Source: a virus
Reading direction: 5' to 3' (one strand)
Length of the DNA: 40,893 nucleotides
Virus record (IMG/VR): IMGVR_UViG_3300042868_002708
Location: 1-40,893 of that record
Part shown: positions 1 through 40,174 of the stretch, in pieces
Layout of the letters: every line of letters starts with the position of its first letter
Numbering within the stretch: the first letter of the stretch is position 1
Position numbers and translations under genes: made by a program
Notes under the pieces: model-generated
Databases searched by the model: none
What the model was told of the DNA's origin: nothing
What the model saw: the letters and a program-made list of their open reading frames with translations, nothing else

Positions 1-143
1 TTAAGTCATAACTTCTGTCTTTAGATTCAAATGTCCAAGCGTCTGACCAAATTTTATCTACGTCCAAAATAATCTGTCTCCATCTTCAATAGGTAAAAAG
101 CCTACAGCCTTAGTTACTTTTTCTTTGTTATCAAACTCTGTTG
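1..143. repeat. Terminal direct repeat, copy 1 (circle junction)
   Basis: Bases 1-143 match 40751-40893 except at position 17 (g here, a at 40767). This is what an assembler leaves when a circular or circularly permuted molecule is read past its starting point. The difference falls in the third base of an Asp codon (GAC versus GAT) of the nuclease C-terminal gene, so it is synonymous. That fits natural strain variation better than a random error. A true short terminal repeat of a linear virion genome cannot be excluded, but the repeat lies inside genes, which makes an assembly overlap more likely. Confidence 0.9.
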
Positions 144-468
144 TTGCTGGTAAATTATCTTGTTCCGTCCAAGTTATGTTATCAAACTTTGACAAGTTAA
201 AAGACCATACTCCCTCAGGTGTAGAATTGATATATAGAGGAGCCATTAAGTTTGTGTTGGCTACCTCCATTAATCTATCGTACTTTGATTTCTCAATAAG
301 TAAACTGCTGTAATGGGTGTGTCGGCACTTTAATTCTATGTATGCGTTAAGGGATTTAGATGTGCAATCAAATGATGAGAACGCATCTTCAGATGAAGCC
401 TCTAAGTCTGGTATTAAAACTTCTTTAAGTCTTAAGAATAAACTTTCTTCGTTCATATTCTCAAACAT
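58..468 (-). CDS. Small PD-(D/E)XK endonuclease-like protein inserted in a split nuclease gene
   Basis: The 136-residue product has a PD-(D/E)XK-like signature. An Asp in 'SSFDCTSK' (about residue 34) is followed by a strand ending in 'YIELKCR' (about 44-50), giving D...ExK. Downstream are 'IEKSKYDRLM' and 'PLYINSTPEG'. From memory this resembles small free-standing homing endonucleases of cyanophages (the F-CphI type), but I could not search. The ATG overlaps the stop of the nuclease N-terminal piece (GATGTTTGA), and the gene ends where the C-terminal piece begins. It therefore occupies almost the whole interval between two halves of one ancestral gene. I infer a homing or intronless-invader nuclease, with a role in recombination as the alternative. 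Confidence 0.6.
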   Translation of the reverse strand: MFENMNEESLFLRLKEVLIPDLEASSEDAFSSFDCTSKSLNAYIELKCRHTHYSSLLIEKSKYDRLMEVANTNLMAPLYINSTPEGVWSFNLSKFDNITWTEQDNLPATTEFDNKEKVTKAVGFLPIEDGDRLFWT

Positions 469-667
469 CTTTGTTTTCTTTCCAAGTTTCTAGGTCATAG
501 ATTTCTGTTGCTTTATGCACAGCAGAACCACCAAGGTTCCATATCGCTGGTTGTTCATCAACTTGTGCTATGCGTCCAAGATAGTACTGCCATCCACAAT
601 TTAACCAAGTTGTTAATGATGAATATGAAACGTGTTCTGGTACTTGATGACCATTAATTTCTAACAT
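461..667 (-). CDS. Cas4/RecB-like exonuclease, N-terminal piece
   Basis: The 68-residue protein contains the start of a Cas4-family PD-(D/E)XK exonuclease. 'SYSSLTTWLNCGWQYYL' holds the first cluster cysteine (Cys24), and 'GGSAVHKATEIYD' holds the RecB-family GxxxH histidine. It stops at 'KENKDV', where the family normally continues. The remainder, with the metal-binding motif and three more cysteines, is encoded at 40164-40817 across the circle junction. I chose the ATG at 667 because an AGGAGAT site lies just upstream; the open frame extends to 772 but that part has no family similarity. The two pieces probably assemble into one enzyme, or the gene is decaying. Confidence 0.72.
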   Translation of the reverse strand: MLEINGHQVPEHVSYSSLTTWLNCGWQYYLGRIAQVDEQPAIWNLGGSAVHKATEIYDLETWKENKDV

Positions 668-698
668 TTTATCTCCTGTCTCTTTGTCTCTAAGGATA

Positions 699-729
699 GT
701 CAGGGAGGGGGAGACAACCCTTCCCTGAC
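699..729. other. Strong hairpin in the leader of the split nuclease gene
   Basis: A seven-base stem (GTCAGGG with CCCTGAC) continues through A-T and G-T pairs into GGG/CCC around a six-base loop. It lies about 30 bases upstream of the nuclease start at 667 on the leftward transcript. No run of T follows on either strand, so it is more likely a leader or mRNA-stabilising structure than an intrinsic terminator. Confidence 0.5.
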
Positions 730-777
730 CAAAGGAGGAAGTGCAAAACACTTCTAAGTAAAACAATACCAAAGGTT

Positions 778-881
778 TATCATTTATGCAAACGCATAAA
801 TGATATTAATATAACTACTACTATAGTAGTTATATTATATATATATTAATACTATAGTAGTTAATACTATAGTATTTAATA
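778..881. promoter_or_regulatory. AT-rich dyad cluster between divergent genes
   Basis: This sits in the 318-base gap between the leftward nuclease (start 667) and the rightward lysozyme (start 986). It holds a 12-bp inverted repeat (778-789 with 794-805, loop aaac), then a 13-bp inverted repeat (807-819 with 825-837). Three direct copies of ACTATAGTAGTTA or a close variant start at 820, 851 and 866. The sequence is almost pure A+T. Iterated palindromes in a divergent gap suggest an operator array or a replication or unwinding element. No gene was seen in this gap. Confidence 0.5.
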
Positions 882-908
882 ATATATATTCCCACCCTGC
901 CACCCTCT

Positions 909-938
909 AGTTTAATACTAGAACTTTAGGTTTGTCAA
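909..938 (-). promoter_or_regulatory. Possible leftward promoter
   Basis: On the minus strand TTGACA (933-938) is followed after 18 bases by TAAACT (909-914). It would read through the dyad cluster toward the split nuclease and the replication operon. The -35 box is a full consensus match and the -10 box is weak. Confidence 0.3.
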
Positions 939-962
939 ATCCCTAATGCTTGTGGTAAGGTG

Positions 963-974
963 GTTCGTACGAAC
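963..974. promoter_or_regulatory. 12-bp palindrome GTTCGTACGAAC before the lysozyme gene
   Basis: A perfect 12-bp palindrome ends one base before the ribosome binding site of the lysozyme gene. Its position suits an operator or a translational control site. I did not notice another copy in the window. Confidence 0.35.
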
Positions 975-985
975 AAAGGAGATAA

Positions 986-1330
986 ATGTTCATACCAATA
1001 ATTCTTTTAAGTTTCCCTCCTGCAATAATGTCGGAGCAAATAAAAGAATCTCCTGTCTTAAGTCGTGCTTATGTACGAGGTCAAGCAGAAGTTAAAGGTT
1101 GGACAGGTAATCAATGGAGTTGCCTTGATGAATTAGTTTGGCGTGAATCTCGGTGGAAGATAAACGCAGATAATCCTAACTCATCTGCTTTTGGTTTATT
1201 CCAAATGTTAAAGACTCCTGAAGATACTGAAATTGAGGAGCAAACAAAACGAGGTCTAAGATATATCGAACATAGATATGACGAACCTTGTTCTGCCTTA
1301 AGACATCACGATAGAAGAAACTGGTATTAA
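986..1330 (+). CDS. Lytic transglycosylase / lysozyme-like cell wall hydrolase
   Basis: The 114-residue protein has a hydrophobic N terminus (residues 3-14) followed by a compact SLT-type lysozyme-like domain. 'LVWRESRW' gives the catalytic Glu54, and then come 'NSSAFGLFQML', 'GLRYIEHRYDEPCSAL' and a terminal aromatic 'NWY'. Cys46 and Cys102 are placed as in actinobacterial secreted transglycosylases, where they can pair. It should cleave peptidoglycan glycan strands, either from the virion or at lysis. A strong AAAGGAGATAA site precedes the ATG. It is the only rightward gene in the left arm and lies far from the M23 endolysin. Its stop codon overlaps that of the convergent zinc-ribbon gene at 1327. 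Confidence 0.8.
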   Translation: MFIPIILLSFPPAIMSEQIKESPVLSRAYVRGQAEVKGWTGNQWSCLDELVWRESRWKINADNPNSSAFGLFQMLKTPEDTEIEEQTKRGLRYIEHRYDEPCSALRHHDRRNWY

Positions 1331-1551
1331 TCCTCTAATTCTAATTTAGAATCTATTGGTATAGGTGGCGTTACTGTTGCTCCACAAGACCAGCAATAAG
1401 CCCCTTGTAAGCCATATGCGTCTATTTCGTATGTCTGTGTATCAAAATGTACAGGAATCATAATCCACTCGCCATCACACCTAGTGCATCGCGCACTAGG
1501 TATGTTGGTGAAATCTTCTTTATTCTTTTCCTTCTTCTTCTTCCACTTCAT
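1327..1551 (-). CDS. Zinc-ribbon small protein
   Basis: The product is 74 residues with a lysine- and glutamate-rich N terminus and two CxxC pairs ('CTRC' and 'CWSC') about 30 residues apart, as in a zinc ribbon. It is the last gene of the leftward early block and ends against the lysozyme gene. The ATG at 1551 lies inside the upstream gene with no clear ribosome binding site, which suggests translational coupling. A TTG one codon earlier is the alternative start. Function unknown; it may bind nucleic acid or protein. Confidence 0.7.
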   Translation of the reverse strand: MKWKKKKEKNKEDFTNIPSARCTRCDGEWIMIPVHFDTQTYEIDAYGLQGAYCWSCGATVTPPIPIDSKLELED

Positions 1552-1804
1552 CAAGATTTAGCATATCCTCGTCTATTAAAATCGTTGTGGCATCAGCAAA
1601 TTTCATAGCCAATGCACCAATAGTACCTATAATTAAAAGTCTAGTGTTATGACTGGTACTAGCATCTTGCCAAGTATCGTCATCTCTCACAAGTCCGTTA
1701 ATTATATCCACAACATTTTCACTCTCTTCAACTGCTTCAACTACTTCCCTCTTAAATGCGCTGTTGATGAGTTCTTCAATACGATACTCGTTACTATCAG
1801 GCAA
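1520..1804 (-). CDS. Hypothetical acidic protein downstream of whiB
   Basis: The product is 94 residues, acidic throughout, with a hydrophobic helix 'LLIIGTIGALAMKFA' in the middle and a Glu-rich C terminus. I place the start at the TTG at 1804, because a strong GGAGAGGAGAC site sits five bases upstream inside the end of whiB. A frame-open ATG at 1858 lies deeper inside whiB. The start overlaps the whiB stop (GTTGCCTGA), so the two are probably co-translated. Family not recognised. Confidence 0.6.
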   Translation of the reverse strand: MPDSNEYRIEELINSAFKREVVEAVEESENVVDIINGLVRDDDTWQDASTSHNTRLLIIGTIGALAMKFADATTILIDEDMLNLDEVEEEEGKE

Positions 1805-2132
1805 CCTCGTCTCCTCTCCTATTCCAAGATGTAAAAGCATCTCGTTGCGCTGTTTCAAATATTTCTGGGACTATGCCTAACTCTTTACGCGCTCGTTTCC
1901 TCTCTGTATAGGTAGTTCCTCCCCACACTCCACGAACATCAACGTGTAAAGCATACTCATAACATTGTCTTAAGACAGGACAATCTTGACAGTACGCCTT
2001 TTGCTCTGGCGCTATCTCTTCTCTTCTCCTATTTGAACCATAATTAAAGAACCAATCAGGGTCAGGGTGAGATAAACATTTCGCTGTCTCAAAGTATGGC
2101 GTTATATGGCGAGTACTGATTGGTTTTGCCAC
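1797..2132 (-). CDS. whiB: WhiB-family iron-sulfur transcription regulator
   Basis: This 111-residue protein has the full WhiB signature. Cysteines at 19, 48, 51 and 57 (C-x28-C-x2-C-x5-C) bind a 4Fe-4S cluster, 'GVWGG' lies at 68-72, and the basic 'TERKRARKEL' follows. Known WhiB proteins act with the principal sigma factor of Actinobacteria and can sense redox or nitric oxide. Phage copies such as TM4 WhiB can repress host whiB genes and affect superinfection. The GTG start follows GGAGATAAC and lies inside the upstream gene. It is the firmest evidence here for an actinobacterial host. A GTCTTAAGAC palindrome lies within the gene at 1967, reading Val-Leu-Arg. Confidence 0.93.
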   Translation of the reverse strand: MAKPISTRHITPYFETAKCLSHPDPDWFFNYGSNRRREEIAPEQKAYCQDCPVLRQCYEYALHVDVRGVWGGTTYTERKRARKELGIVPEIFETAQRDAFTSWNRRGDEVA

Positions 2133-2596
2133 GATTTAGTTATCTCCTCTTCGATAGTGGTTTCGCCACCTCGTACTCGATAGATGATTGCGCCAAGGTC
2201 AATGACATCACTCTTAGCCCAGCGTTGTCTTTCATCATCACGACTTAAGACATAAAGAGACCTACTCAATGGGTCAAAGATGTATGCAAACTCAGTACAC
2301 ATAACATCTTCGGACTCCCAAGTGAGCCACAGTTCTTGTTTGTGTTGGCTGGCTATGCCGTAACCTGCTATGTAGTTGTCTTCTTCTTTAAGATAGTCAG
2401 GTTTTTCAAAACTAAGCGATGACCAACTAGGTTGCTCAAAGACTAGCGTTGATACGACATCATTTAAGTTATGTCTTAAGACTAACTCAATTAGAGTTGG
2501 AACCATATTGCTTGGGTATCCGTCCCAATGTACATACTTACCAATCCAAGTATCTTCATTACCTATTGTCCTACCCACTATTGACCTTGTTGCCAT
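2102..2596 (-). CDS. Conserved phage protein ('MATRS...VHWDGYP' type)
   Basis: The product is 164 residues. The N-terminal 'MATRSIVGRTIG' followed by 'KYVHWDGYPSNMVPTL' is a pattern I recall in uncharacterised proteins of phages and plasmids. No catalytic motif is evident. The ATG follows a strong AGGAGGCAAATAA site, and the 3' end overlaps the whiB start by 31 bases, so the two are co-transcribed. It carries two of the recurring palindromes (2242 and 2473). Function unknown. Confidence 0.7.
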   Translation of the reverse strand: MATRSIVGRTIGNEDTWIGKYVHWDGYPSNMVPTLIELVLRHNLNDVVSTLVFEQPSWSSLSFEKPDYLKEEDNYIAGYGIASQHKQELWLTWESEDVMCTEFAYIFDPLSRSLYVLSRDDERQRWAKSDVIDLGAIIYRVRGGETTIEEEITKSWQNQSVLAI

Positions 2597-2597
2597 T

Positions 2598-2753
2598 TTA
2601 TTTGCCTCCTTGTATTAAATCAAACGATACCTTACCGATTGACTTTTCTTGCTCTAACTCTTCTTCTGTTGGCACATAAGATAACTCTCTGATTATGTGC
2701 CTTAACATAGTTTCAATGCGTTCTAATCTTTGTTCAATCGTCATTGTCATCAT
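2598..2753 (-). CDS. Hypothetical small helical protein
   Basis: The product is about 51 residues. The likely amphipathic helix 'EQRLERIETMLRHIIREL' is followed by an acidic tail. Start choice is uncertain among ATGs at 2753, 2750 and 2744; all lie within the 3' end of the upstream microprotein gene, so coupling is likely. The open frame extends to 2870 but runs over another gene there. Unrecognised family. Confidence 0.5.
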   Translation of the reverse strand: MMTMTIEQRLERIETMLRHIIRELSYVPTEEELEQEKSIGKVSFDLIQGGK

Positions 2754-2886
2754 CTCTATCTGTGTCCCAATCCCACTCGTCACGCATTTCTTGTTTGTAA
2801 TCTTTGTATGCTTGTTCTTCGCATATCTGGCACTCGCCAGACCAACTTTTTCCACAGCATAAGATTGCATTGTCTAAACTATTCAT
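2734..2886 (-). CDS. Cys-rich microprotein (50 aa)
   Basis: The product has N-terminal cysteines ('ILCCGKSWSGECQIC') and a very acidic tail rich in Asp. The ATG at 2886 overlaps the stop of the upstream membrane microprotein (CGATGA) and has a G-rich site upstream. Its 3' end overlaps the start of the next gene. It resembles a small zinc-binding protein; function unknown. Confidence 0.55.
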   Translation of the reverse strand: MNSLDNAILCCGKSWSGECQICEEQAYKDYKQEMRDEWDWDTDRDDDNDD

Positions 2887-2951
2887 CGCTGCCCCCATAC
2901 TAAGAACATTAGCACAACGAATCCGATAGATATGATAAGTTCAACAATCAT
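2883..2951 (-). CDS. Single-pass membrane microprotein (22 aa)
   Basis: A tiny frame starts at an ATG overlapping the previous stop (AAATGA) and ends by overlapping the next start. Its product is almost entirely one hydrophobic helix ('IVELIISIGFVVLMFLVW'). The end-to-end overlap with both neighbours is the main evidence that it is translated. It could be a membrane peptide acting on host physiology. Confidence 0.4.
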   Translation of the reverse strand: MIVELIISIGFVVLMFLVWGQR

Positions 2952-3043
2952 TTGTCGTCCTCGCTTGTCTTGAAATCATCACGACAATCATCGCAATACT
3001 TACCACCAGTTTTTTCTTGGTGTTCGCATATCTCGCATAACAT
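2948..3043 (-). CDS. Zinc-finger microprotein (31 aa)
   Basis: The product has two CxxC pairs ('CEIC' and 'CDDC') twelve residues apart and an acidic tail. A strong AAGGAGATAAG site lies just before the ATG at 3043. The gene overlaps the next by four bases (ATGA). The compact CxxC-x12-CxxC layout fits a single zinc-bound knuckle. Confidence 0.55.
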   Translation of the reverse strand: MLCEICEHQEKTGGKYCDDCRDDFKTSEDDK

Positions 3044-3044
3044 A

Positions 3045-3212
3045 TTACTTATCTCCTTCGCAATTAGAACATATTGTAACTCCATTGTAAATATGTCCAC
3101 CCTCTTCGTCAAGGTCTACGACATTAGAACAAGAACCACATTTAGTTATTGAATCTATATGTCTTAAGACATCAACAGTTTCAGGTTTTAATAGTTCTGC
3201 AATTGTTGGCAT
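3045..3212 (-). CDS. Zinc-ribbon small protein
   Basis: The product is 55 residues with 'CGSC' and 'CSNC' pairs 22 residues apart, separated by an acidic loop, as in a zinc ribbon. The ATG at 3212 overlaps the upstream stop by one base (TAATG), with GGGGGAC upstream. A GTCTTAAGAC palindrome (3161-3170) lies in the coding region and reads Val-Leu-Arg. Function unknown. Confidence 0.65.
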   Translation of the reverse strand: MPTIAELLKPETVDVLRHIDSITKCGSCSNVVDLDEEGGHIYNGVTICSNCEGDK

Positions 3213-3487
3213 TACATTGTCCCCCAATTTGCACCATAGACTTCTTGTCCGTAGTCATCTTCAAAGGTGAGTTCTTTCAATGGCACATTAAACTCCATTG
3301 AAATCTCGTCCTCTAACCAAGCGACTACATCATCTAAGTCTGGGTCTTCTATGTCCCACTCTTTCATACTTGCTACTGCTTTTTCTACATCAAAGATAAC
3401 TAACTTAGTTACAAATAGTTTCTTTGGTAGTTTTATCTCAGCGTCAAGCGCAGGACTTGTTGTCATATCTTCTGACTTAAGACTCAT
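3212..3487 (-). CDS. Hypothetical acidic early protein
   Basis: The product is 91 residues and strongly acidic. I chose the ATG at 3487, because GGAGGATAGGAAT lies directly before it; an in-frame ATG at 3502 lacks such a site. The gene overlaps both neighbours by a few bases. No recognisable motif. A half-matching palindrome (3474) falls at its start. Confidence 0.6.
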   Translation of the reverse strand: MSLKSEDMTTSPALDAEIKLPKKLFVTKLVIFDVEKAVASMKEWDIEDPDLDDVVAWLEDEISMEFNVPLKELTFEDDYGQEVYGANWGTM

Positions 3488-3627
3488 ATTCCTATCCTCC
3501 AATCATTAGAATTTTTATGTCTTACGCAATCACAATAAAGACACATATCGTAATCTGTTTCGTCATTAGCATAAACATAATCGTGTTCTTCTTTGATATG
3601 TATTTCTATATATTCTTCAATCTTCAT
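3484..3627 (-). CDS. Small Cys-containing early protein (47 aa)
   Basis: This frame is preceded by AAGGAGAATAAAG and overlaps the next gene by four bases (ATGA). The product has 'CLYCDC' near the middle within an otherwise acidic, Tyr-rich sequence. It could be a partial metal site. Function unknown. Confidence 0.5.
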   Translation of the reverse strand: MKIEEYIEIHIKEEHDYVYANDETDYDMCLYCDCVRHKNSNDWRIGI

Positions 3628-3856
3628 CTTTATTCTCCTTGTCGAATCTTAAAACACTATTAACAGCGTCAATAAAATTCTCCGTTGTAGCCCACTCATA
3701 CATAACATCAAAGACCTCTGACAATTTCTTATCAGTAATCTGTACCTTGATATCATCTGCAAGGCAATCTATATCTTCTTTAGTGTAGACATCGAAGAAT
3801 ATCTCCTCTTCAAGGTCATACTTTTTTAGTATTTCTATTGCTTTTTTTACTTTCAT
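3617..3856 (-). CDS. Hypothetical early protein, paralog of 4074-4301
   Basis: The product is 79 residues beginning 'MKVKKAIEILKKYDLEEE'. It shares its length and pattern (a basic start, Ile/Leu helix, 'EE' then a beta strand, acidic middle) with the gene two positions upstream, so the pair looks like an old duplication. The ATG follows AAGGAGACAAG. I recall small phage proteins that open with a similar 'VKD(L/V)I..L' helix. Function unknown. Confidence 0.6.
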   Translation of the reverse strand: MKVKKAIEILKKYDLEEEIFFDVYTKEDIDCLADDIKVQITDKKLSEVFDVMYEWATTENFIDAVNSVLRFDKENKDED

Positions 3857-4074
3857 CTTGTCTCCTTATTTAGTTGGTCAATCATTAAGGAAACCTTAGC
3901 GCACGTTTTTTCTTCGTTAAGAATAAACATCTCGTCTCCTTGGTAAGCGCGTTCCCACACTTTCATTTTAGGGTCGTACGCTGTGCCGTCACTAAATACA
4001 TCTTCTTCAGTTTCAGTGTCGTGTATCCACTCGTTTGTTACATCGTCAAACATAATTACATAATGGTGTTGCAT
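3853..4074 (-). CDS. Hypothetical early protein
   Basis: The product is 73 residues with aromatic and acidic segments ('HHYVIMFDDVTNEWIHD'). The start at 4074 shares its first base with the end of the upstream gene, and a GAGGTGAGC site lies inside that gene. It lies between the two paralogs at 3617 and 4074. No motif recognised. Confidence 0.6.
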   Translation of the reverse strand: MQHHYVIMFDDVTNEWIHDTETEEDVFSDGTAYDPKMKVWERAYQGDEMFILNEEKTCAKVSLMIDQLNKETR

Positions 4075-4301
4075 TATTCGCTCACCTCGTATTCTCTCAA
4101 CACATTAAGTATTTCTTCACTAATAACTTGTGATGAGAAATCGAGATTGTTGTCATCGACTTCTTTAGTAACCTTAGACCAAACATCATCGGTTATAGGA
4201 CTCTCTTCAGTATCAAAGATGTCCTTACTCCACCAAAGAATTACAACTTCTTCTTCAGGGTTTAGTTCTTTCATATTTTTAATTACATCTTTTGCTTTCA
4301 T
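4074..4301 (-). CDS. Hypothetical early protein, paralog of 3617-3856
   Basis: The product is 75 residues. 'MKAKDVIKNMKELNPEEEVV' matches the pattern of the paralog start, followed by 'ILWWSKDIFDTEES' and a C-terminal helix. AAGGAGACAAA precedes the ATG. The duplication with 3617-3856 spans one intervening gene, which suggests recombination or slippage in the early block. Confidence 0.6.
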   Translation of the reverse strand: MKAKDVIKNMKELNPEEEVVILWWSKDIFDTEESPITDDVWSKVTKEVDDNNLDFSSQVISEEILNVLREYEVSE

Positions 4302-4330
4302 TTTGTCTCCTTGTCTCCGTGTCTTATGTC

Positions 4331-4567
4331 TTAAGACAGGTTTTCTATCGTTCCTACTGATACTGCAACTAACAACATAATCAAAGTTGCAAGCGCTGTC
4401 AAGACTCGCTCGCCTCTTTTTGTTAGTTTCATACCACCTATATACATAGGTGAATCTTTATCTGGTTGTGTAGCGAAAGCGAAACCTCGTACGCTCTCTT
4501 CACATATGCACAGGTGCCAATCTGCATAGCACTCGTAGCAATACTTATGTCTTAAGTCTTGATTCAT
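4331..4567 (-). CDS. Membrane protein with Cys-rich head
   Basis: The product is 78 residues. A Cys-rich N-terminal part ('CYECYADWHLCIC', residues about 9-21) precedes a hydrophobic segment near the C terminus ('VLTALATLIMLLVAVSVG', about 55-72). It is likely anchored in the host membrane with a metal-binding cytoplasmic head. TAGGAGACGAA precedes the ATG. The stop codon lies inside a TGTCTTAAGACA palindrome (4327-4338). Confidence 0.6.
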   Translation of the reverse strand: MNQDLRHKYCYECYADWHLCICEESVRGFAFATQPDKDSPMYIGGMKLTKRGERVLTALATLIMLLVAVSVGTIENLS

Positions 4568-4575
4568 TTCGTCTC

Positions 4576-4971
4576 CTAATCCATTTCTTCTATGATTGCG
4601 TTTGCTTGTTTCATATCTTCTTTACATATATTACACAATCCAACTACATTTGTAGTGATTCCTTCGGGCGTGTTCCAAGATAGAAGAAACTTTCCAATAC
4701 TTCTTCCTGCTATCTTTTTTGATTTAATTTCTGGGCAATCTCCCATATCACATAGGTCTAATGTTGGGACATTGTTTCTTTTAAACAATCTATGAATAAA
4801 ATCGAAAGCCTCTGACTTGTTCTTAAAGTTTTGTCTTAAGACTTTATTTATACTTTTCAATGATTGTGTATTTCTTGTACCAAATCTTAAATCCCACGCT
4901 AAACTTTGATACACACCTATCAGCGCAACGTGTTGCATAGCGCTTAGGCTAATCATTTCTTCTTTCTGCAT
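4576..4971 (-). CDS. Hypothetical early protein (131 aa)
   Basis: I start this at the ATG at 4971, because AAGGAGACGAA sits immediately upstream, as in its neighbours; the open frame runs on to 5067 over promoter-like sequence. A helical N terminus precedes Cys pairs ('CDMGDC' and 'CNICKED') that may form one metal site. It contains a GTCTTAAGAC copy (4833) read as Val-Leu-Arg. Family not recognised. Confidence 0.6.
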   Translation of the reverse strand: MQKEEMISLSAMQHVALIGVYQSLAWDLRFGTRNTQSLKSINKVLRQNFKNKSEAFDFIHRLFKRNNVPTLDLCDMGDCPEIKSKKIAGRSIGKFLLSWNTPEGITTNVVGLCNICKEDMKQANAIIEEMD

Positions 4972-5000
4972 TTCGTCTCCTTTGTAGTTACTTGTCTTGC

Positions 5001-5067
5001 TTGTTACCAAATCTATGCCCTCGTATCCTCTCCTGTCAAGGATATTTAGATAACGATTTGGTAACAA
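5001..5067 (-). promoter_or_regulatory. Leftward promoter flanked by a 13-bp inverted repeat
   Basis: On the minus strand TTGACA (5034-5039) and TAGATT (5010-5015) are 18 bases apart, a good promoter match. A perfect 13-bp inverted repeat (5001-5013 with 5055-5067, core TTGTTACCAAATC) brackets it. The same TGTTACC core recurs at 6687-6715 and 7161-7183. This fits a promoter controlled by a regulator that binds TGTTACC boxes. Confidence 0.45.
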
Positions 5068-5086
5068 TTTCTTTCCGTCTTAAGAC

Positions 5087-5182
5087 CTAACCTTTTCTAA
5101 TTAGGCGTGCTACTACTAACATCAAAACTGCTGATGTTGTAAAACTGATTGCTAATAAAATCCCTAGCACATCTGTTCCCAT
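5087..5182 (-). CDS. Single-pass membrane microprotein (31 aa)
   Basis: A short frame with GAGGAGACGAA directly before its ATG, the same leader as the longer early genes. The product is one hydrophobic helix ('ILLAISFTTSAVLMLVVA') ending in basic residues ('RLIRKG'). A GTCTTAAGAC palindrome begins at the base after the stop codon. Likely a small inner-membrane peptide; function unknown. Confidence 0.55.
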   Translation of the reverse strand: MGTDVLGILLAISFTTSAVLMLVVARLIRKG

Positions 5183-5244
5183 TTCGTCTCCTCGTCCCCT
5201 CTGTAGTAGTTTGTGTTGGCTCTGGCTTTTTAGTTCCAGAAGAA

Positions 5245-5272
5245 AGGGCTTACGCCTTAAGACATAAGCCCT
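5245..5272. other. Intergenic hairpin built on a CTTAAG palindrome (unit 1)
   Basis: Near-perfect 28-base inverted repeat centred on CTTAAG. The outer AGGGCTTA pairs with TAAGCCCT, with two mismatched positions nearer the centre. It lies between the genes at 5087 and 5284. Two related units follow at 5499 and 5898. No T-run follows, so it is not a standard terminator. Confidence 0.6.
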
Positions 5273-5283
5273 AACTTCCGTCT

Positions 5284-5454
5284 CTAACTAGCGACCTCTT
5301 CTAATTTGCCTAGATAATCTAAGCAAATTCTGATAGCGTCATCTGCACCTTGGCAAGAATTTACCTCTCTGGTAAATTCGTCCGAACTCTTTCCTGCTCT
5401 TCTGTATTGCTTGTACACTTCTGCCATAAAATAGCGTGGGTCTTGGTCGAACAT
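5284..5454 (-). CDS. Hypothetical small early protein (56 aa)
   Basis: An AGGAGAC site lies before the ATG at 5454. The product starts 'MFDQDPRYFMAEVYKQY' and looks helical and mixed-charge, with no motif I recognise. It is flanked on both sides by palindrome-centred hairpins (5245 and 5499), as though the gene and its hairpin form one cassette. Confidence 0.6.
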   Translation of the reverse strand: MFDQDPRYFMAEVYKQYRRAGKSSDEFTREVNSCQGADDAIRICLDYLGKLEEVAS

Positions 5455-5473
5455 TTTTTGTCTCCTCTCCTTT

Positions 5474-5524
5474 GGCTAACCTTTAGCCTCAGGGTCAAGA
5501 GGTTATGTCTTAAGACGTAACCTC
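5474..5524. other. Intergenic double hairpin with GTCTTAAGAC (unit 2)
   Basis: A 26-base inverted repeat (5499-5524) has GAGGTTA and TAACCTC around GTCTTAAGAC with one mismatched pair. A smaller hairpin lies beside it, with arms GGCTAA/TTAGCC at 5474-5479 and 5483-5488. The surrounding sequence resembles the unit at 5885-5940, including 'TTAGCCTCAGGGT' and 'TCCGATTCTA'. Confidence 0.6.
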
Positions 5525-5536
5525 CTGCCTCCGATT

Positions 5537-5845
5537 CTAAATCGCGCTTTCTTCTTCGTTTATTTCTTCAAATCTTTTGGCTATCTGATAAAAAGCGTCA
5601 GCGCCCCAGCCGATTAGTAATTGTCGGAGTAATAGAGAGCCAGTTCCGTTTCCTCTCTCTTCTTCGTCTGTTGCTAGTCGGTTAATCCAAAATTCGAAAT
5701 CTTGTTGGATTAACTCTGAACCTCCTAGTACGCCCTTTTTATCTACAACTTTTTTGAAATGGTAATACATTTCTTGGTCGTTCTCTGCTACTAGCAAGAA
5801 ATCGTTAACGAATTGTTCTCTTGCTTGGTTCTCTGTTGCTTGCAT
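5537..5845 (-). CDS. Hypothetical early protein (102 aa)
   Basis: Acidic, probably all-helical product with 'LLLRQLLIGWGADAFYQIAKRF' near the C terminus. GAGGAGACAAA precedes the ATG. Family not recognised. Repeated hairpin units lie on both sides, as for the 56-residue gene next to it. Confidence 0.6.
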   Translation of the reverse strand: MQATENQAREQFVNDFLLVAENDQEMYYHFKKVVDKKGVLGGSELIQQDFEFWINRLATDEEERGNGTGSLLLRQLLIGWGADAFYQIAKRFEEINEEESAI

Positions 5846-5897
5846 TTTGTCTCCTCGTTTTGTTTGTGTTGGTTCCTGTGGTGATTAGCCTCAGGGT

Positions 5898-5929
5898 GAG
5901 GCTCTTAAGTCTTAAGACCTAAGAACCTC
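5898..5929. other. Intergenic hairpin built on GTCTTAAGAC (unit 3)
   Basis: A 32-base inverted repeat with two mismatched pairs, centred on GTCTTAAGAC at 5909-5918. A second CTTAAG lies at 5904-5909. Its flanks resemble the unit at 5474-5524, so these gaps share ancestry. It lies between the SprT-like gene and the next leftward gene. Confidence 0.6.
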
Positions 5930-5938
5930 CCTCCGATT

Positions 5939-6586
5939 CTATTCGTTGTCTTCTGCTATAAATTCACTATCACAAGTCTGGCACATCGGACGGCAATTGT
6001 CTAGCACCTTTTGAGATAATCTTATGATTTCTCCACAATTACACATCGCCTTAATGCCGTTCTTGTTTCTTGATTTCTTTTGCCCTTTTTCTATTTGCAA
6101 GGCTGTCACATCTAAAGCCTTGGCGATTTTCTCGATTTCTTTTTTCCACCTTTTAAGGGCGTGTTCTGGCATTGAGGTCTTAGATAGTCCGATTCCTTTT
6201 TTCTCGCTCTTTTCTATCTTAAGACTAAAGATTTCTTGGGCTGTATTTTGGAATTTCTTGTTATGGTAGCCGTCACCTGTCACGTCTTGAATATCGTTCT
6301 TGAAATTATAGGCGTGGGCTAATTCGTGGAGCAAGGTTCCCATTGTGTCTTCAGCACCTCTGCTCAATGATTCAGCAGATAGGAAGATTTCATTAGCCAA
6401 TTTCTCGCCTTTTTTCCAAGGTGTGAAATGTGTAAAGTGTCCGTGGATTTTTCCCTTTTCTTCACGAGCCAATGAAACTACAATTTCTGGGAATTCGATT
6501 CCAATTTCTTGGATAACTGAATTCTTTACATCTTCAAGAACTGAGAGCAATCCTGATAGTTCCTGAGTCTTTTCTTTTGTCTTCAT
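5939..6586 (-). CDS. SprT-like zinc metalloprotease
   Basis: The 215-residue protein has the zincin motif 'LLHELAHAYN' (His87, Glu88, His91). A downstream 'YHNKKF' supplies the probable third zinc ligand, His108. A C-terminal zinc ribbon follows (Cys182, 184, 202, 205 with Cys198 nearby). This is the SprT/SPRTN architecture, whose cellular members cut DNA-bound proteins; phage copies are common in actinophages but uncharacterised. CAGGAGACAAAAA precedes the ATG. It is the first gene of the leftward early block, next to the control region, so it is probably expressed early. I infer clearance of host proteins from DNA or attack on a host factor. Confidence 0.85.
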   Translation of the reverse strand: MKTKEKTQELSGLLSVLEDVKNSVIQEIGIEFPEIVVSLAREEKGKIHGHFTHFTPWKKGEKLANEIFLSAESLSRGAEDTMGTLLHELAHAYNFKNDIQDVTGDGYHNKKFQNTAQEIFSLKIEKSEKKGIGLSKTSMPEHALKRWKKEIEKIAKALDVTALQIEKGQKKSRNKNGIKAMCNCGEIIRLSQKVLDNCRPMCQTCDSEFIAEDNE

Positions 6587-6607
6587 TTTTTGTCTCCTGT
6601 GTCTTAA

Positions 6608-6625
6608 GTCGGAACTATTTCCGAC
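6608..6625. other. Hairpin in the SprT leader
   Basis: Perfect seven-base arms GTCGGAA/TTCCGAC around the loop ctat, overlapping a GTCTTAAGTC site at 6601-6610. It would lie in the 5' untranslated leader of the leftward early transcript if the candidate promoter at 6626-6653 is used. Confidence 0.5.
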
Positions 6626-6653
6626 CTAATAAATCAACGGTACCAGACGCCAA
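6626..6653 (-). promoter_or_regulatory. Possible leftward early promoter
   Basis: On the minus strand TTGGCG (6648-6653) and TATTAG (6626-6631) are spaced 16 bases apart, about 40 bases upstream of the SprT-like start. The match to consensus is moderate. Position at the head of the early block is the main support. Confidence 0.3.
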
Positions 6654-6793
6654 TCGTGAGGTGTCAAGGTGAAAAGGGGGAAATTAGGTAACGATTTGAT
6701 AACGATTTAGTAACAGACAAAACGGACAAATCGGACATCTATGAGGGGTCGTGAGGAATCGTGAGGGAATTCACAAATCGGACAAAACGGACA
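6654..6793. repeat. Iteron-like repeat cluster
   Basis: Several short repeat families lie together. TCGTGAGG occurs at 6654, 6749 and 6759. GGTAACGATTT and GATAACGATTT are adjacent at 6687-6708, with a third partial unit at 6709. ACAAA(A/T)CGG nine-mers occur as a tandem pair at 6717-6734 and again in reverse order at 6773-6790. The region is gene-free, lies between the divergent early and late blocks, and resembles a replication origin or multi-site operator. Confidence 0.55.
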
Positions 6794-11433: not shown

Positions 11434-14400
11434 TGGCTGATAATAAAGAAATACAAGATTATTCAGCAGAACTGTACAAAACTGTAACTAAGTTTACCCC
11501 TACCCCTTCTCAAAGTGCTGAACTTAATGGTTGGGCTGGTATTCAAAATGTTAATCAACGTTTATACAGTTTTAACGACCCTATTTTAGCAAGTAAAGAA
11601 TTTAACAAACTTGATAAAAACATTCAAGACATTATCGCTCAACAGAATCCTAATGCACCCTTTTTACCTCAACCAGAAAAAAAAGGTTTCATTAAGCAAT
11701 CATTAGAAGGTTTAAGAAGTTACGCTAACTTAATTACTGGCGTATATCGTGGTGCTAAGTTTGCACAACAAGAAAAGATTTCATTCTCTAAAGCCTGGGA
11801 TATGACAAAGGGCAACGGAGAAGCATTTTTTGATAGGGACCGTGTACAAAAAGTTGATGCTTTTTATTCCAAGGGTGTTGCTAAAGTTGCCAAAATGGCA
11901 TCTATGGGCAAAAGTTCTGGAGAAATTTTAGCCAATATTAATATGGCTGATGCTGCAGAAGTGAAAGCATACCAAGACTACCTTGATGTTGAAAATAATA
12001 AGACAATGCAACAGGCTCTTGGCGATTACAATATGGCTAAGATTTCTCTTGGTAGAGATATTGCTTATGACATCTTTGGTCTTAGAGTTAAACCAGGCGA
12101 ATACGGAACTGCTAAACGTAAAGCCTTTGGTGTTGTATCTGCTGTTGGTGATTTAGCAAACAATATTATATTTGACCCACTAACTTATGTTGCTCTTCCT
12201 TTCCAAGTAGCAAAGATTGGTGCACTAGGGGTAACTCGTGCAGCAACACTTGGTGGTTTAGGAAGAACCATTACAGGCGAAGCAGCCTTAAGTGCAAAGA
12301 TTTCAGATGCTTTTACTCATCCATTATTTGGAAAAGCAGTAACTAGATTTTACGATAACATTGGTGTTCAAGTAGAGCGTCTTGCTAAGGGAACAGAAGA
12401 AGAAGCAAACCAGGCTTTCGGTATTATCAATAGACAATTTGGCAAAGACATAAGACCTGATGTAGTTCAGGCTATGGTTAAAGCAAAAGTATTCAATGCT
12501 GATGCTGCTAAGAAGTTTTTTCAAGATGCAGAAAACTTTAGTTTACTTACTAACGGTAAAAAAGTATTAGGTAAAGATGTTATTCCTACCTATAGCATTT
12601 TTCGTGGATATAAAAACGAGATTAAAAATGCTATGCTTAGAACAACAGGGATTAGCACAACTAAAAAAGGTGCCGTTACTGCAGGAATAACTAGCGAAAC
12701 ATTATTAAAAACTATTGCTAGACCAGATTTTCTTCAAGATAAAGTAGCGCAAGAACAATTAACTGCAGCAATTAAAGATTCTGCTAGCAAAGCAAGTAGA
12801 TTTGCACGCTTTATTGAGATAGCACCTAGTGCAAAGACTATTAAAATTGCTAGATACATTGGTCCAGACGGCAAAGAAATAGACGAAGGTTTAAAATCCC
12901 TTAAAGATGTTATATCTTTAGGTCGTATTGCTGGTATGTCTCGTCCAGATGCTGACGAATTAGGTAGATTATGGACAACTGCTAGCGTTGCTCAACGTAG
13001 AAATATTCATAAAGGTTTAGTATTCGCAATATCTGATGAACTTGGATTATTCCAAGGTATGGATAGTGCTAGAATAATGAATAAACTTGACAAAATTGCA
13101 GGAACTCAAGAATACGCATTAGAACAAAACATAGATGCTGCATTATACAAAGCGATGCCAGAAGATATGCGTAAATTTCTTGATGATGCTTACAAATCTA
13201 CTGGTGGCGTATTAAAAACTATTAAAAGTACAGAAAGACCAATTACTTTTAACCCTGGAAAGTTAGGTTCTGATAGGGCTGCTGCAGCGATGGAGCATCA
13301 ACTATCTTTTGAACTAAACACTCCAGACCTTCGTGCTATTCGTTCCGAAGTTTACAGTGCTAGAGGGGCTAAGATTCGCTCCCTTGGACAAGTATTTAAC
13401 AATAAGTATGCTGATGCAATTGTAAGTACCTGGGCTTTCTTAACACTTGTTCCACGTTTAGGTATTCGTTCTGCTATTGAAGAAATAGGTGTATTTGGTT
13501 TAATTGCTACGCCTAAAACATTAGTTAATTTAATACGTTATGGTTATCCAACTAGCCGTGCTGGAAGAATAGTTAAAGATTCTGATGCTAAGTTTTTTGA
13601 TAGCAAAGGCGTTGGTGGTCCTACTCGTGTTTACTATGCTATGTTTAAACCAAATCTTACTAAAGAGATTAAAGAAAGCATTGATAAAGATTCAAGTATA
13701 GAAAACGTAGCACTCCAAACCAATGTTGCTATACAAAAAGGTAGATTTGGATTTAATCGTCCTTTAGACCAGCAATTTACTAAAGATACTGAAGATTTAG
13801 TTAGATTTGGATATGATTCTACTGGCTATAAAGAAGCAACTATGTCAGTTACAGCATCAACAGATATTAGTGGTGCTGCTGCCAAGGGATATGGCGCTGG
13901 AGCAGTTGTAATACCAGAACAAGGTCCTTCTTTAGCCTTTAGTATGAATAGAAAAAAGTTTGAAAAAGAATTTACTTCAGAAGGTCCTGCTGTAGAAATT
14001 AAACTACAAGACCAACCAGATGCTTACTATATGGCTCTTGGTGTTGAAATGTTTAAGCGAGCAGGAGTAGCAGGTAACACATCTAAACTTGCAATTAAAT
14101 ACATTGATAACCCTAAAAAGGCTATTGAAGAAATACGTAAAGAATTAGATAAAAATACAACTTTGGCAAGCGCATTTACCAATAACGTAGATTCTAATGT
14201 TACCAATAGTCAGTTAGCATCATCTATTTATTTTGCTACTCGTCAAACCTTTACTAATGCAAAAGGTGAAGTTAACCCTGATTTAGTTAAACTTGTTTAC
14301 ACTAGAGGTAAAGACAAAAACGGTAAGATAGTTGATAACTGGACTCCAGATATTGATATGGAAAAATTGCGTTTGATGAAAGGCAAAGACCTTCCTATTA

Positions 14401-16259
14401 CTGTCTTAAGTCAAAAGTGGATTCCTATTGCTGAAAATCAAGGTGGATTGATTGATGCTATAAATAGAAGAGGCTATGCCTGGATGGACCGTCAAATATC
14501 CACAATGACCAGAGAGCCTATCTTTACTGCTAACTACCATACTTATCGTAAAGAATATAGAAACCTAGAAAACATAAAGCGCAGCACATTAATTAAAAAT
14601 GGGATGAGTCCAGAGGCTGCAGATAAAGTTGCCAGAAAGTACGCTAGTGATTTAGCAACGGATGCAGCAGGTAAGCGTACATTAGATTTTGTCGATAATC
14701 CATTAATTAGAACTAACTTAGCATTTGGATTACGTAACTTTGCTCGTTTCTATCGTGCAACAGAAGACTTCTGGAGACGTGCTTACAGACTAGGCACTAC
14801 CCAAACAGATGCTATTATTCGTTTAAGATTAGCAACTCAAGGATTAGAACACTCAGGCTTTGTTTATGAAGATGATGAAGGCGAATTATACTTTGTATTT
14901 CCTGGTGATGATATAATTTATAATGCAGTATCTATAGCACATAGATTTATAGATGGTAATTCAAATCTTAAATTGCCACAATCATTACAATTTAGTGGTA
15001 AAGTTAAATTCTTATCACCGTCATTAGACCCACAATCAGCAATCCCTACATTTTCAGGTCCACTTGCTGGTATTTCAATGGTTGTTCTACAACAACACGC
15101 ACCTAACTTTTGGGGCATTAGAGATAGATTACTTGGTGTAACTCTTGGTGAAATGAGCAAGGACGCAACATATAAAGATGTTATTCTTCCTCCAGTTGCT
15201 AAACGTATTATGTCATTTATGTCACCTAATGATGTTAACGGTGAAATGGCTTCTGCTCAAAGACAAGCCTATGCTTACCTTGTTGCAAATGGTGAGGGCT
15301 TAGATATAAATGCCACACCTGAAGAAAAACTGAAATTTCAAGAAAACTTAGAAGCATTAGCATCTAACATATTAACTACTAGATTCTTTTTAGGTTTAGT
15401 ATCTCCAGTTGCATTAAGTGCATCTGCAGGTAAAGACGTTAGCGCTACATTAAAAGACTTAGGGAATGTTGATTTTAGGTCTGAGTTTTATGAAACTGTT
15501 CAAGAATTAACTTTACAAGGTTCAACAGACCCTTTTGGTGAAGCCAATATGAGATGGGCTAAGGCTAAACCAGGTGTACTTGCTTACACAATAGCACAAA
15601 GTGAAAGAAGTAGAGTTTTAAGTATTCGTCAAACTAATGATGCTATTGCTTGGTTAAAAAAGAATGAATCATTAGTTAATAAGTATCCAGAAGGTTCTGC
15701 TTTTTTTGTACCTAATAGTGGTGAATTTGATATTGCTGAATCTAAGTTTTTTCAAAGAGAAGGCTACACTGATAAGATTCCAGTAGAAGATTTTATAACT
15801 AAAGTTACTGCTCAGGAACAATTAAATGAATACTACACTAAACGTGATGAGTGGGATTCAAAAATTGAAAACGCACCTGAAAGTATTCGTTCAATTATTC
15901 GTCAGCAAAAAACTTTAGATATGCAAGAGTTTACTAAAGGTAAATACTACTTACAAAAAGCATTAGAAAATTATGGAAGTGCTGCAGATACTACTGCTGC
16001 TTGGGAAGAACTTGTTAGAATGATTGACAATAATGATGCTCCTAAAACTCCAAATGCACAAAAAGTTATAGATATAGTTAATCTTGTTCAAGAAGCAAAC
16101 AACGTTACAGCAATGATGTTTGATGGAACTGTAGATGCTTCTCAGCGTAGAAGTTTGATACGTAATAACGCTATGCAACAAGCATTAGAGATTGCTGCAA
16201 ACGATGCAGGTCTTATAAGAATCATTAATACTGTTGTTAAGAAACAATTAGGAGTTTAA
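11433..16259 (+). CDS. Giant virion protein (1608 aa), candidate internal/ejection protein
   Basis: At 4.8 kb this is the largest gene, about 12% of the genome. The product is mostly helical, with a hydrophobic stretch near residues 240-270 ('VSAVGDLANNIIFDPLTYVA'), and a segment around 1090-1130 rich in Arg and aromatics ('LRNFARFYRATEDFWRRAYR'). I see no peptidase, transglycosylase or polymerase motif. Its place between portal and scaffold or capsid genes, without tape-measure repeats, suggests a protein packed inside the head and ejected with DNA, as in podoviruses. The class of 'large polyvalent' phage proteins is an alternative. Function inferred from size and position only. Confidence 0.65.
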   Translation: MADNKEIQDYSAELYKTVTKFTPTPSQSAELNGWAGIQNVNQRLYSFNDPILASKEFNKLDKNIQDIIAQQNPNAPFLPQPEKKGFIKQSLEGLRSYANLITGVYRGAKFAQQEKISFSKAWDMTKGNGEAFFDRDRVQKVDAFYSKGVAKVAKMASMGKSSGEILANINMADAAEVKAYQDYLDVENNKTMQQALGDYNMAKISLGRDIAYDIFGLRVKPGEYGTAKRKAFGVVSAVGDLANNIIFDPLTYVALPFQVAKIGALGVTRAATLGGLGRTITGEAALSAKISDAFTHPLFGKAVTRFYDNIGVQVERLAKGTEEEANQAFGIINRQFGKDIRPDVVQAMVKAKVFNADAAKKFFQDAENFSLLTNGKKVLGKDVIPTYSIFRGYKNEIKNAMLRTTGISTTKKGAVTAGITSETLLKTIARPDFLQDKVAQEQLTAAIKDSASKASRFARFIEIAPSAKTIKIARYIGPDGKEIDEGLKSLKDVISLGRIAGMSRPDADELGRLWTTASVAQRRNIHKGLVFAISDELGLFQGMDSARIMNKLDKIAGTQEYALEQNIDAALYKAMPEDMRKFLDDAYKSTGGVLKTIKSTERPITFNPGKLGSDRAAAAMEHQLSFELNTPDLRAIRSEVYSARGAKIRSLGQVFNNKYADAIVSTWAFLTLVPRLGIRSAIEEIGVFGLIATPKTLVNLIRYGYPTSRAGRIVKDSDAKFFDSKGVGGPTRVYYAMFKPNLTKEIKESIDKDSSIENVALQTNVAIQKGRFGFNRPLDQQFTKDTEDLVRFGYDSTGYKEATMSVTASTDISGAAAKGYGAGAVVIPEQGPSLAFSMNRKKFEKEFTSEGPAVEIKLQDQPDAYYMALGVEMFKRAGVAGNTSKLAIKYIDNPKKAIEEIRKELDKNTTLASAFTNNVDSNVTNSQLASSIYFATRQTFTNAKGEVNPDLVKLVYTRGKDKNGKIVDNWTPDIDMEKLRLMKGKDLPITVLSQKWIPIAENQGGLIDAINRRGYAWMDRQISTMTREPIFTANYHTYRKEYRNLENIKRSTLIKNGMSPEAADKVARKYASDLATDAAGKRTLDFVDNPLIRTNLAFGLRNFARFYRATEDFWRRAYRLGTTQTDAIIRLRLATQGLEHSGFVYEDDEGELYFVFPGDDIIYNAVSIAHRFIDGNSNLKLPQSLQFSGKVKFLSPSLDPQSAIPTFSGPLAGISMVVLQQHAPNFWGIRDRLLGVTLGEMSKDATYKDVILPPVAKRIMSFMSPNDVNGEMASAQRQAYAYLVANGEGLDINATPEEKLKFQENLEALASNILTTRFFLGLVSPVALSASAGKDVSATLKDLGNVDFRSEFYETVQELTLQGSTDPFGEANMRWAKAKPGVLAYTIAQSERSRVLSIRQTNDAIAWLKKNESLVNKYPEGSAFFVPNSGEFDIAESKFFQREGYTDKIPVEDFITKVTAQEQLNEYYTKRDEWDSKIENAPESIRSIIRQQKTLDMQEFTKGKYYLQKALENYGSAADTTAAWEELVRMIDNNDAPKTPNAQKVIDIVNLVQEANNVTAMMFDGTVDASQRRSLIRNNAMQQALEIAANDAGLIRIINTVVKKQLGV

Positions 16260-35712: not shown

Positions 35713-35751
35713 AGGCAGGAATAGGTATCACTACCTACCCTGCCTCTTTTT
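35713..35751. terminator. Bidirectional intrinsic terminator between convergent operons
   Basis: AGGCAGG (35713-35719) pairs with CCTGCCT (35739-35745), and inside it TAGGTA pairs with TACCTA around the loop tcac. CTTTTT follows at 35746-35751. It separates the rightward HNH unit from the leftward replication operon, whose last stop codon lies inside the hairpin. This is the clearest terminator in the window. Confidence 0.8.
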
Positions 35752-36385
35752 GCGTTTTTAAAACAGGATAATCTGTGTCGCGATATGGAGCATAACCACC
35801 CAGTTTTTTGATGATTGCATCAATGGCTCTGGTCACTCTCATACGTGCAGCCTTCTCATTAGGTAGGTATAATAATTTGGCTAATGACTTAGAATCTTTA
35901 CCTGATTGATACCACATATATAAAACGTTTTGTTGGTCTTCTTTTAGTTTTTCAAATGCTCTAGATATATCTGCTTGCATAGCAAGAAGGTTTCCACCTT
36001 CGCTTGGGGTTCTACTACTTCTATCAGAGTTAACATCGTTAATGTTTTCTGGTTGAGTAAACTCACCACTTAAGACAGAAGGAAGTAACTCTTCCACAAT
36101 ATCTCTTTTGTAATAGAACACATCAGTTATTTCATAACCAGTAGTTCTAGCCTTTTCATATTGACAATACTTACTTGTAGCATTATGTAATGCTCTAGCA
36201 AATAATCTTACTGCATCTTTTTTATTTTCTAATGAGTGCCACTCTTCTGTTTTCTTTGGATGTTCTACAAACCAAAGCCAGCACTCTTGAGTTATATCTT
36301 GAATAGGAACCATTGGATATTCTTTGCTTTTAGCATAAGATACCGAATTAACTAATGATTCGTATTCTTCTATGTAATCTACCAC
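35735..36385 (-). CDS. Sigma-70-like RNA polymerase sigma factor
   Basis: The 216-residue protein has a region 2-like segment ('PIQDITQECWLWFVEHP', about 27-43) and a C-terminal region 4-like helix-turn-helix ('LKEDQQNVLYMWYQSGKDSK' leading to 'EKAARMRVTRAIDAIIKKLG'). Between them is a long linker. It is the last gene of the replication operon, so it would accumulate midway through infection and could redirect host polymerase to late promoters. Start overlaps the upstream phosphatase by seven bases. A non-sigma HTH regulator is the alternative. Confidence 0.7.
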   Translation of the reverse strand: MVDYIEEYESLVNSVSYAKSKEYPMVPIQDITQECWLWFVEHPKKTEEWHSLENKKDAVRLFARALHNATSKYCQYEKARTTGYEITDVFYYKRDIVEELLPSVLSGEFTQPENINDVNSDRSSRTPSEGGNLLAMQADISRAFEKLKEDQQNVLYMWYQSGKDSKSLAKLLYLPNEKAARMRVTRAIDAIIKKLGGYAPYRDTDYPVLKTQKEAG

Positions 36386-38918: not shown

Positions 38919-38997
38919 TTACATTACACTCATTGTTACAGGTGCAATACCACGTCTTAAGACATATATAACATTTGCCATCATTATCCTTAGACAT
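38905..38997 (-). CDS. Cys-rich microprotein (30 aa)
   Basis: The ATG overlaps the end of the ATPase gene and the stop lies inside the next gene. The product has 'CYICLKTWYCTCNNEC', six Cys-spaced residues fit for a zinc knuckle. The perfect GTCTTAAGAC copy at 38954-38963 lies within it, reading Leu-Lys-Thr. Similar in style to the microproteins of the early block. Confidence 0.5.
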   Translation of the reverse strand: MSKDNDGKCYICLKTWYCTCNNECNVNEKL

Positions 38998-39787: not shown

Positions 39788-40174
39788 TTATACCCAACCT
39801 GGCTCTCCACGCTTAATCCAAATAGGTTCGCATTGGTCTGAAGTTCCTTTAGCAGATGGGCACATCCACGCTTGCCAAGGACCTTTACCACTTGAACCTG
39901 CTTTGTGTTTGCGTGTTCCGTGTTTGCAACTTGGTGATGGTGTACTTGGTGCAGCAACATTAACTGCTGTAACAGTTCCACCAACAGCACCTGCAATATC
40001 AGAAATAGACATTGGACTCATCGCATCTTCTAATGCGCCAATAACTACATCTATTTGACCAGCAACAACATCACTTATATTTTTACTAAATGATGTTATG
40101 TCATCCCCACGAACTGTAAGGATTGTTCCTTTAGGTGTCTTTACGTTTGCTACAAACGTTGACTCACTTGACAT
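39788..40174 (-). CDS. Zinc-ribbon replication-operon protein
   Basis: The 128-residue protein has an N-terminal half with 'TPKGTILTVRGDDITSF', and a C-terminal zinc-ribbon-like 'CKHGTRKHKAG' with later 'MCPSAKGTSDQCEPIW'. This C-terminal pattern is one I recall in small actinophage proteins encoded beside exonuclease and helicase genes; single-strand DNA binding has been suggested by position. AGGAGAAGTAATCA precedes the ATG. It overlaps the nuclease piece by eleven bases. Confidence 0.65.
   Translation of the reverse strand: MSSESTFVANVKTPKGTILTVRGDDITSFSKNISDVVAGQIDVVIGALEDAMSPMSISDIAGAVGGTVTAVNVAAPSTPSPSCKHGTRKHKAGSSGKGPWQAWMCPSAKGTSDQCEPIWIKRGEPGWV

Follow-up and report, generated by a model that had tools for sequence, protein, structure and literature searches.

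The first genes of a leftward viral early operon are separated by three similar long inverted repeats, raising the question of what these repeats are and at which level, DNA or RNA, they act. An initial sequence-only reading had proposed either duplicated gene-plus-hairpin cassettes or a repeated RNA element controlling mRNA processing or stability. The window, i.e., the whole stretch of DNA analyzed, is a 40,893-base IMG/VR record (IMGVR_UViG_3300042868_002708) from an uncultured freshwater actinobacteriophage. Below, we describe the setting and fold of the three hairpins (modules A, B, and C), the evidence that their pairing is maintained, and the explanations that this evidence favors.

Setting of the modules in the early operon

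The window's terminase is 44 to 55% identical to the terminases of a Streptomyces phage and of "Caudovirales ct2KA10," and a WhiB-like regulator is encoded; an actinobacterial host is therefore very probable. From 7343 the structural genes run rightward, and from 6586 the early genes run leftward, so the RNA of the modules is that of the minus strand. The modules sit among the first four genes of the early operon, whose features, together with two putative regulators, are as follows (L numbers denote related contigs).

6663..6707 (-), region that probably holds the early promoter of the SprT gene, with AAATCGTTAYC direct repeats and TTGACA but without a clear -10
5939..6586 (-), SprT-like protein gene (PF10263, phrog_6361; family matches), first in the leftward early operon
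5883..5944 (-), hairpin module A: P1 (UAG/CUA), P2 (UCGG/CUGA), P3 (14 bp plus 2), loop UUAA; begins at the TAG stop codon that ends the SprT-like gene
5537..5845 (-), accessory gene X (102 aa), in the interval from A to B; L007, L008, and L009 have the unrelated gene W instead
5481..5542 (-), hairpin module B, architecture as in A; begins at the TAG stop codon of gene X
5284..5454 (-), accessory gene Y (56 aa), in the interval from B to C; L008 has the unrelated gene V instead
5228..5289 (-), hairpin module C, architecture as in A, with P2 as CGGAAG/CUUCUG and a U-rich tail after P3; begins at the TAG stop of the 56-aa gene
5087..5182 (-), 31-aa gene Z, 3' of module C, probable single membrane helix
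5010..5069 (-), another probable promoter, located past module C and gene Z: the same AAATCGTTAYC repeats, TTGACA-18-TAGATT
1797..2132 (-), WhiB-like regulator, pointing to an actinobacterial host
35735-36385 (-), phage-encoded sigma factor (phrog_354)

Family searches gave no confident match for accessory genes X, Y, W, V, U, and Z; a weak match of X to GNAT proteins (8.5e-5) fell below the Pfam cutoff and was not trusted. The AAATCGTTAYC direct repeats ahead of TTGACA (window 6687-6707 and 5049-5069; L009 8894-8915 and 10009; L007 9311) are probably an operator or activator site. A promoter scan found no sigma-70-like promoter in the gaps holding A, B, and C. The sigma factor and the WhiB-like protein suggest phage control of host transcription.

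Two other features of the window were observed. An exonuclease (phrog_1870) appears to be split on the minus strand into an N-terminal part (461-772), a 136-aa open reading frame (58-468), and a C-terminal part that lies across the record ends (40164-40817); L007 has three consecutive open reading frames in the same order (13369-14789). This arrangement suggests that a domain or element has been inserted and that the record is circularly permuted. At 778-876, three adjoining AT-rich inverted repeats with stems of 12 to 14 bp possibly mark an origin or a bidirectional terminator region.

Three homologous modules with a common fold

Modules A, B, and C are each 62 nt long and homologous (A/B, 74% identity; B/C, 65%; A/C, 58%). 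In each, the UAG stop codon of the preceding gene pairs with a downstream CUA (P1), followed by the short P2 and by a P3 of 12 to 14 bp capped with UUAA; together, the helices span ~22 to 24 bp with small internal loops, making an imperfect hairpin. The inverted repeats centered on CTTAAG that had been noted at 5245-5272, 5499-5524, and 5898-5929 are present and correspond to the inner stems of these longer modules. The sequence blocks said to be common to all three gaps exist as well but are shared only pairwise, TTTGTGTTGG by C and A and TTAGCCTCAGGGT and TCCGATTCTA by B and A. Likewise, the reported absence of a T-run holds for A and B but not for C, where P3 is followed by UUUCUUCU. CTTAAG lies 55 to 74 nt upstream of the next start codon.

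The minus-strand RNA of the modules folds at -30 to -33 kcal/mol (z, -6.1 to -6.9), and none of 200 shuffled sequences folded as well; the plus strand folds more weakly (-17 to -25 kcal/mol). A covariance model gave 77 to 78 bits for each of the three modules, all of which are part of the model, and found nothing else above 20 bits in the whole window. We rejected stop codon readthrough: within the loop or the 3' arm, the frame past UAG runs into an in-frame stop, so that no extension is encoded.

Pairing is kept by compensatory change on the transcribed strand

We aligned 14 distinct module copies gathered from close relatives. RNAalifold recovered the same P1-P2-P3 structure from them unprompted. 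In this alignment, 96.7% of pair cells were kept paired and 11 of 20 pairs showed two-sided changes, values reached by 0 of 500 shuffles, although the copies are related and partly orthologous, so that covariation counts are not independent events. Cells with a two-sided change numbered 34, whereas shuffles gave 8.3 ± 3.0, and pairing fell to 31 to 57% when the partner was displaced by one to three columns. Individual copies illustrate the pattern. In L027, all three P1 pairs are swapped (UAG/CUA to AGU/ACU); in module A of L009, P2 is altered by compensation (UCGG/CUGA to CUAG/CUAG) and the lower helices are retained. The apical 7 bp and the loop are nearly invariant among the aligned copies, whereas mid-stem pairs are variable. 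Thus, the transcribed strand forms a three-helix hairpin with a UUAA or UUAG loop whose helices are kept by compensatory change. The sequence-only reading had named a lack of compensatory changes in homologues as evidence against it; such changes proved abundant, and its proposal of a repeated RNA element is supported.

Departures from Watson-Crick pairing in the stems distinguish RNA from DNA. On the transcribed (coding) strand, G-U outnumbered A-C by 34:2, and selection therefore acts on the transcribed RNA; such a bias is not expected from a DNA-binding palindrome. Moreover, module C of L007 has the loop UUAG, which breaks the DNA palindrome and leaves the hairpin intact.

Full modules are carried by a small clade of about eight contigs, some of which represent one and the same phage. 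No Rfam family reached its gathering score for the modules, BLAST searches among annotated phages gave no relevant match to the region or to module A, and neither the strict module pattern nor a relative of the terminase was found in 84,980 bacterial and archaeal genomes. Judged by their listings, the papers found in the literature searched, which included few subscription papers, give no description of this motif. The covarying RNA element is genuine and is carried by uncultured actinophages of a small clade.

Genes are exchanged between the hairpins

Gene content between the hairpins differs among relatives, as seen in the transcribed order of each locus.

Window: SprT-A-X-B-Y-C-Z
L007: SprT-A-W-B-Y-C
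L008: SprT-A-W-B-V-C
L009: SprT-T-promoter-A-W'-B-Y-D-U-C-Z
L024: SprT-A-X'-U'-C
L027: SprT-hairpin-X''-hairpin-38aa

Genes X, W, Y, and V have no mutual similarity. Comparison of L007 with L008 was informative: the SprT genes are 85.3% identical, the A-W-B stretch, with both hairpins in full, is 98.8% identical (4 differences in 340 nt), and the sequences are then unrelated until C. The changes in identity at A and B mark a recombined block with both ends at hairpins. These data show that genes between module copies were exchanged among relatives, with breakpoints at the copies. The idea of gene-plus-hairpin cassettes is thus supported in an altered form: paralogy is limited to the hairpins, and the genes that they enclose are unrelated and exchanged among phages. 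Duplication of gene and hairpin as one unit is rejected, as X, Y, and W lack similarity. Hairpins are not the sole route of gene gain or loss, since a 79-aa gene further down the operon (3617-3856) is absent in L007 and has no hairpins.

The apex belongs to a family-wide start-associated motif

The module apex GUCUUAAGAC is not private to hairpins A to C. The apex CUUAAGAC is also the core of a family-wide start-associated sequence, CTTAAGACAGGAG, found ~20 nt before ATG in freshwater viral contigs (loci L245-L295 and L296-L373) and often lying behind a covarying hairpin. In the window, this motif is carried by the SprT leader.

6601..6629 (-), start-associated motif GACTTAAGAC (6601-6610), 22 to 24 nt before the SprT ATG, with the leader hairpin (TTAGGTCGGAAATAGTTCCGACTTAA, 6604-6629) joined to it

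The window contains 31 copies of CTTAAG, compared to 16 expected, and 18 of the 31 lie in 1-6610. Exact copies of GTCTTAAGAC number eight in 1-6640 and zero in the structural region (6641-35700). Within early-gene coding sequence, exact copies are found at 1967-1976, 2473-2482, 3161-3170, 4833-4842, and 38954-38963, far above chance and outside long hairpins.

We then counted motifs in 51 contigs with more distant SprT genes (410 kb), a few of which are the close relatives again, taking the strand of the SprT gene as the coding strand. CTTAAGACA occurred 315 times on that strand and 60 times on the opposite strand. Four control 9-mers occurred 0 to 3 times per strand; the fifth, CTTAAGTCA, which has the same CTTAAG core, occurred 23 and 65 times. 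In these contigs, 133 copies of CTTAAGACAGGAG or a near variant lie 15 to 34 nt, mostly 19 to 23 nt, before a start codon, and a database scan for the motif gave at least 120 matches. At 52 of 250 distinct sites from 99 loci, a significantly stable hairpin ends within 4 nt of the motif. In 18 such hairpins, selected as stable, the majority of stem positions have at least three pair types.

Comparison with known systems

The early RNase III sites of T7 are related hairpins between successive early genes at which mRNA is processed into separate messages. The modules resemble them in arrangement, as a set of related hairpins that separate consecutive early genes in a single operon, and each has about two helical turns. 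They differ in having a conserved apex sequence and an association with gene swapping; furthermore, the modules are known from sequence, and cleavage is a proposal. The PeSL (promoter-early stem-loop) cassettes of T4-like phages, attributed to Arbiol et al. in 2010, reportedly combine a strong promoter with an effective terminator. Both are repeated intergenic stem-loops whose homology mediates accessory-gene exchange, and the exchange breakpoints in L007 and L008 (85.3%, then 98.8%, then unrelated) coincide with the repeats. In contrast to PeSLs, A and B have neither element, and no promoter-like site lies in the gaps of A, B, or C.

Start-associated sequences (SAS) and their extended form (ESAS) are described for cluster K mycobacteriophages and Microbacterium phage clusters; the SAS is a motif of about 13 nt that includes the Shine-Dalgarno sequence and lies a few nucleotides (3 to 9) from the start codon (PMC3203893, PMC7302621, PMC11373665). 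Similarities include a repeated short motif with an inverted repeat before start codons, confined to nonstructural genes of actinophages. The 13-nt CTTAAGACAGGAG, or a close variant of it, is present in the SprT leader and in 99 related contigs, in some cases with an inverted repeat upstream. The SprT leader (6601-6610) and 133 sites in relatives have the SAS position; modules A to C, 55 to 74 nt before the start codon, do not. Restriction to nonstructural genes in the direction of transcription was also found (8 versus 0 for GTCTTAAGAC; 315:60 for CTTAAGACA), with a weak orientation in the window (9:6). The inverted repeats of cluster K have no RNA-pairing support and contain a SigA promoter, whereas the modules have covarying pairing and no promoter inside. 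Modules A to C are not SAS by position and carry the same core atop a longer hairpin. Judged by its motif and leaders, the start-associated system of the family closely resembles SAS/ESAS, with RNA-pairing support that cluster K lacks.

A proposed cistron-boundary element and its alternatives

The explanation that we favor, at a probability of roughly 0.5, treats A, B, and C as three copies of a single structured RNA element, placed in leader and intercistronic spaces among the short accessory genes that open the early operon. The element would act in processing, stability, or translation of accessory early cistrons and would also serve as a recombination joint. By analogy with the RNase III sites of T7, we infer the molecular step to be processing, end protection, or translation; control of mRNA processing or stability, as originally suggested, is compatible with this reading. 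In the mRNA, the imperfect hairpin of ~24 bp would mark the border of two cistrons and would be either cut by a double-strand-specific nuclease of the RNase III type or left as a block to exonucleases. Each small cistron would thereby be given a separate 3' end and, before its GGAGAC ribosome site, a structured 5' leader. Homologous recombination between module copies would swap genes without harm to expression, because the same insulating element bounds every cassette. The near-invariant apex CUUAAGAC, common to the start-associated sequence, suggests that a phage or host factor may read it too; pure RNase III sites need no conserved apex, so its invariance hints at something more.

The main rival is that the modules are partial terminators or attenuators of the U-tract-less, "I-shaped" actinobacterial kind, imposing stepwise polarity through the accessory genes. 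In mycobacteria, U-less terminators within 50 bp of stop codons have been described (PMC12288462), and it is for this reason that attenuation is retained, although U-less termination is contested (Czyz 2014, as reported in PMC12288462). The I-shaped terminators resemble the modules in having a strong hairpin right at a stop codon, no U-tract, and an actinobacterial setting. The modules begin at stop codons, and the favored explanation has to contend with terminator-like U-rich tails on module C (UUUCUUCU, alone among the three) and on the related hairpin T of L009 (8642-8700; a perfect 16-bp stem with a UUUCUUUAU tail). However, module copies are also found in the leader of a promoter and in intergenic positions that no promoter follows. 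Since the gaps lack promoters, efficient termination at A and B, which have no U-tract, would leave X and Y without a transcript. In L009, the SprT gene ends in hairpin T, a new promoter follows, and module A then forms the 5' leader with no gene upstream of it, directly after the promoter and ahead of its genes; a strong terminator there would silence the unit and is therefore disfavored. Relatives have canonical U-tract terminators elsewhere, and the lower helices P1 and P2 covary though termination needs neither. We consider attenuation rather unlikely. Hairpin T and the modules have a GGUCUUAGGACUU apex in common, and T may show how modules and terminators interconvert.

Compatible with the cistron-boundary reading, and tentatively held, is the possibility that the apex binds a trans-acting RNA-binding protein, as a translational operator or a put/nut-like antitermination site, and that the same factor reads the start-associated CUUAAGACAGGAG. 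The near-invariant apex above variable mid-stem pairs, the strand bias of CTTAAGACA in relatives, the 133 motif sites before a Shine-Dalgarno sequence and start codon, and the encoded WhiB and sigma factor, by which the phage would reprogram expression, all fit such a factor. No candidate RNA-binding protein was identified, however, and in the lineage of the window the motif is palindromic and weakly strand biased (9:6, early region). A DNA-level element, either an operator or stoperator-like palindrome GTCTTAAGAC or a recombination site, could explain why exact copies number nine in the window (eight at 1-6640; 0 for the reversed control), why some lie inside genes, and why gene exchange takes place at the modules; with G-U pairs retained on one strand only, the palindrome broken in L007, and arms free to vary provided that pairing holds, we regard it as very improbable. 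The single-strand G-U bias likewise disfavors stoperators of the cluster A type. We give equally little credence to a ribosome-gated switch in which ribosomes terminating at the UAG in P1 would free the 3' strand of P1/P2 to pair with sequence just before the next ribosome site as P4. The candidate hairpins in the window are as follows.

5875..5895 (-), possible P4 in module A, an alternative fold that would exclude P1/P2 (P = 0.006)
5469..5493 (-), possible P4 in module B, pairing GGCUAA with UUAGCC (P = 0.018)
5220..5241 (-), possible P4 in module C (P = 0.04)

P4 pairing was found in 16 of 16 copies tested, with P values of 0.002 to 0.14 each against a null model that is a simple shuffle. 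Nevertheless, P4 excludes the Shine-Dalgarno sequence, and module A of L009 keeps P1/P2 without an upstream gene, which is why the switch is kept only as a rival.

Returning to the cistron-boundary element, we speculate, with considerable doubt, that this freshwater actinophage family uses an RNA code on its early mRNAs. In such a code, CUUAAGAC would abut the Shine-Dalgarno sequence behind a covarying leader hairpin or stand at the apex of an intercistronic hairpin, a dedicated factor would select messages for translation or processing, and the intercistronic form would also be a gene exchange joint. A phage family with strong pairing support and the motif in 99 contigs makes the role of pairing testable. 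The repeated structural RNA may let phages shuffle accessory genes while operon expression stays unbroken, and such shuffling is seen here in viruses of abundant, poorly cultured freshwater bacteria.
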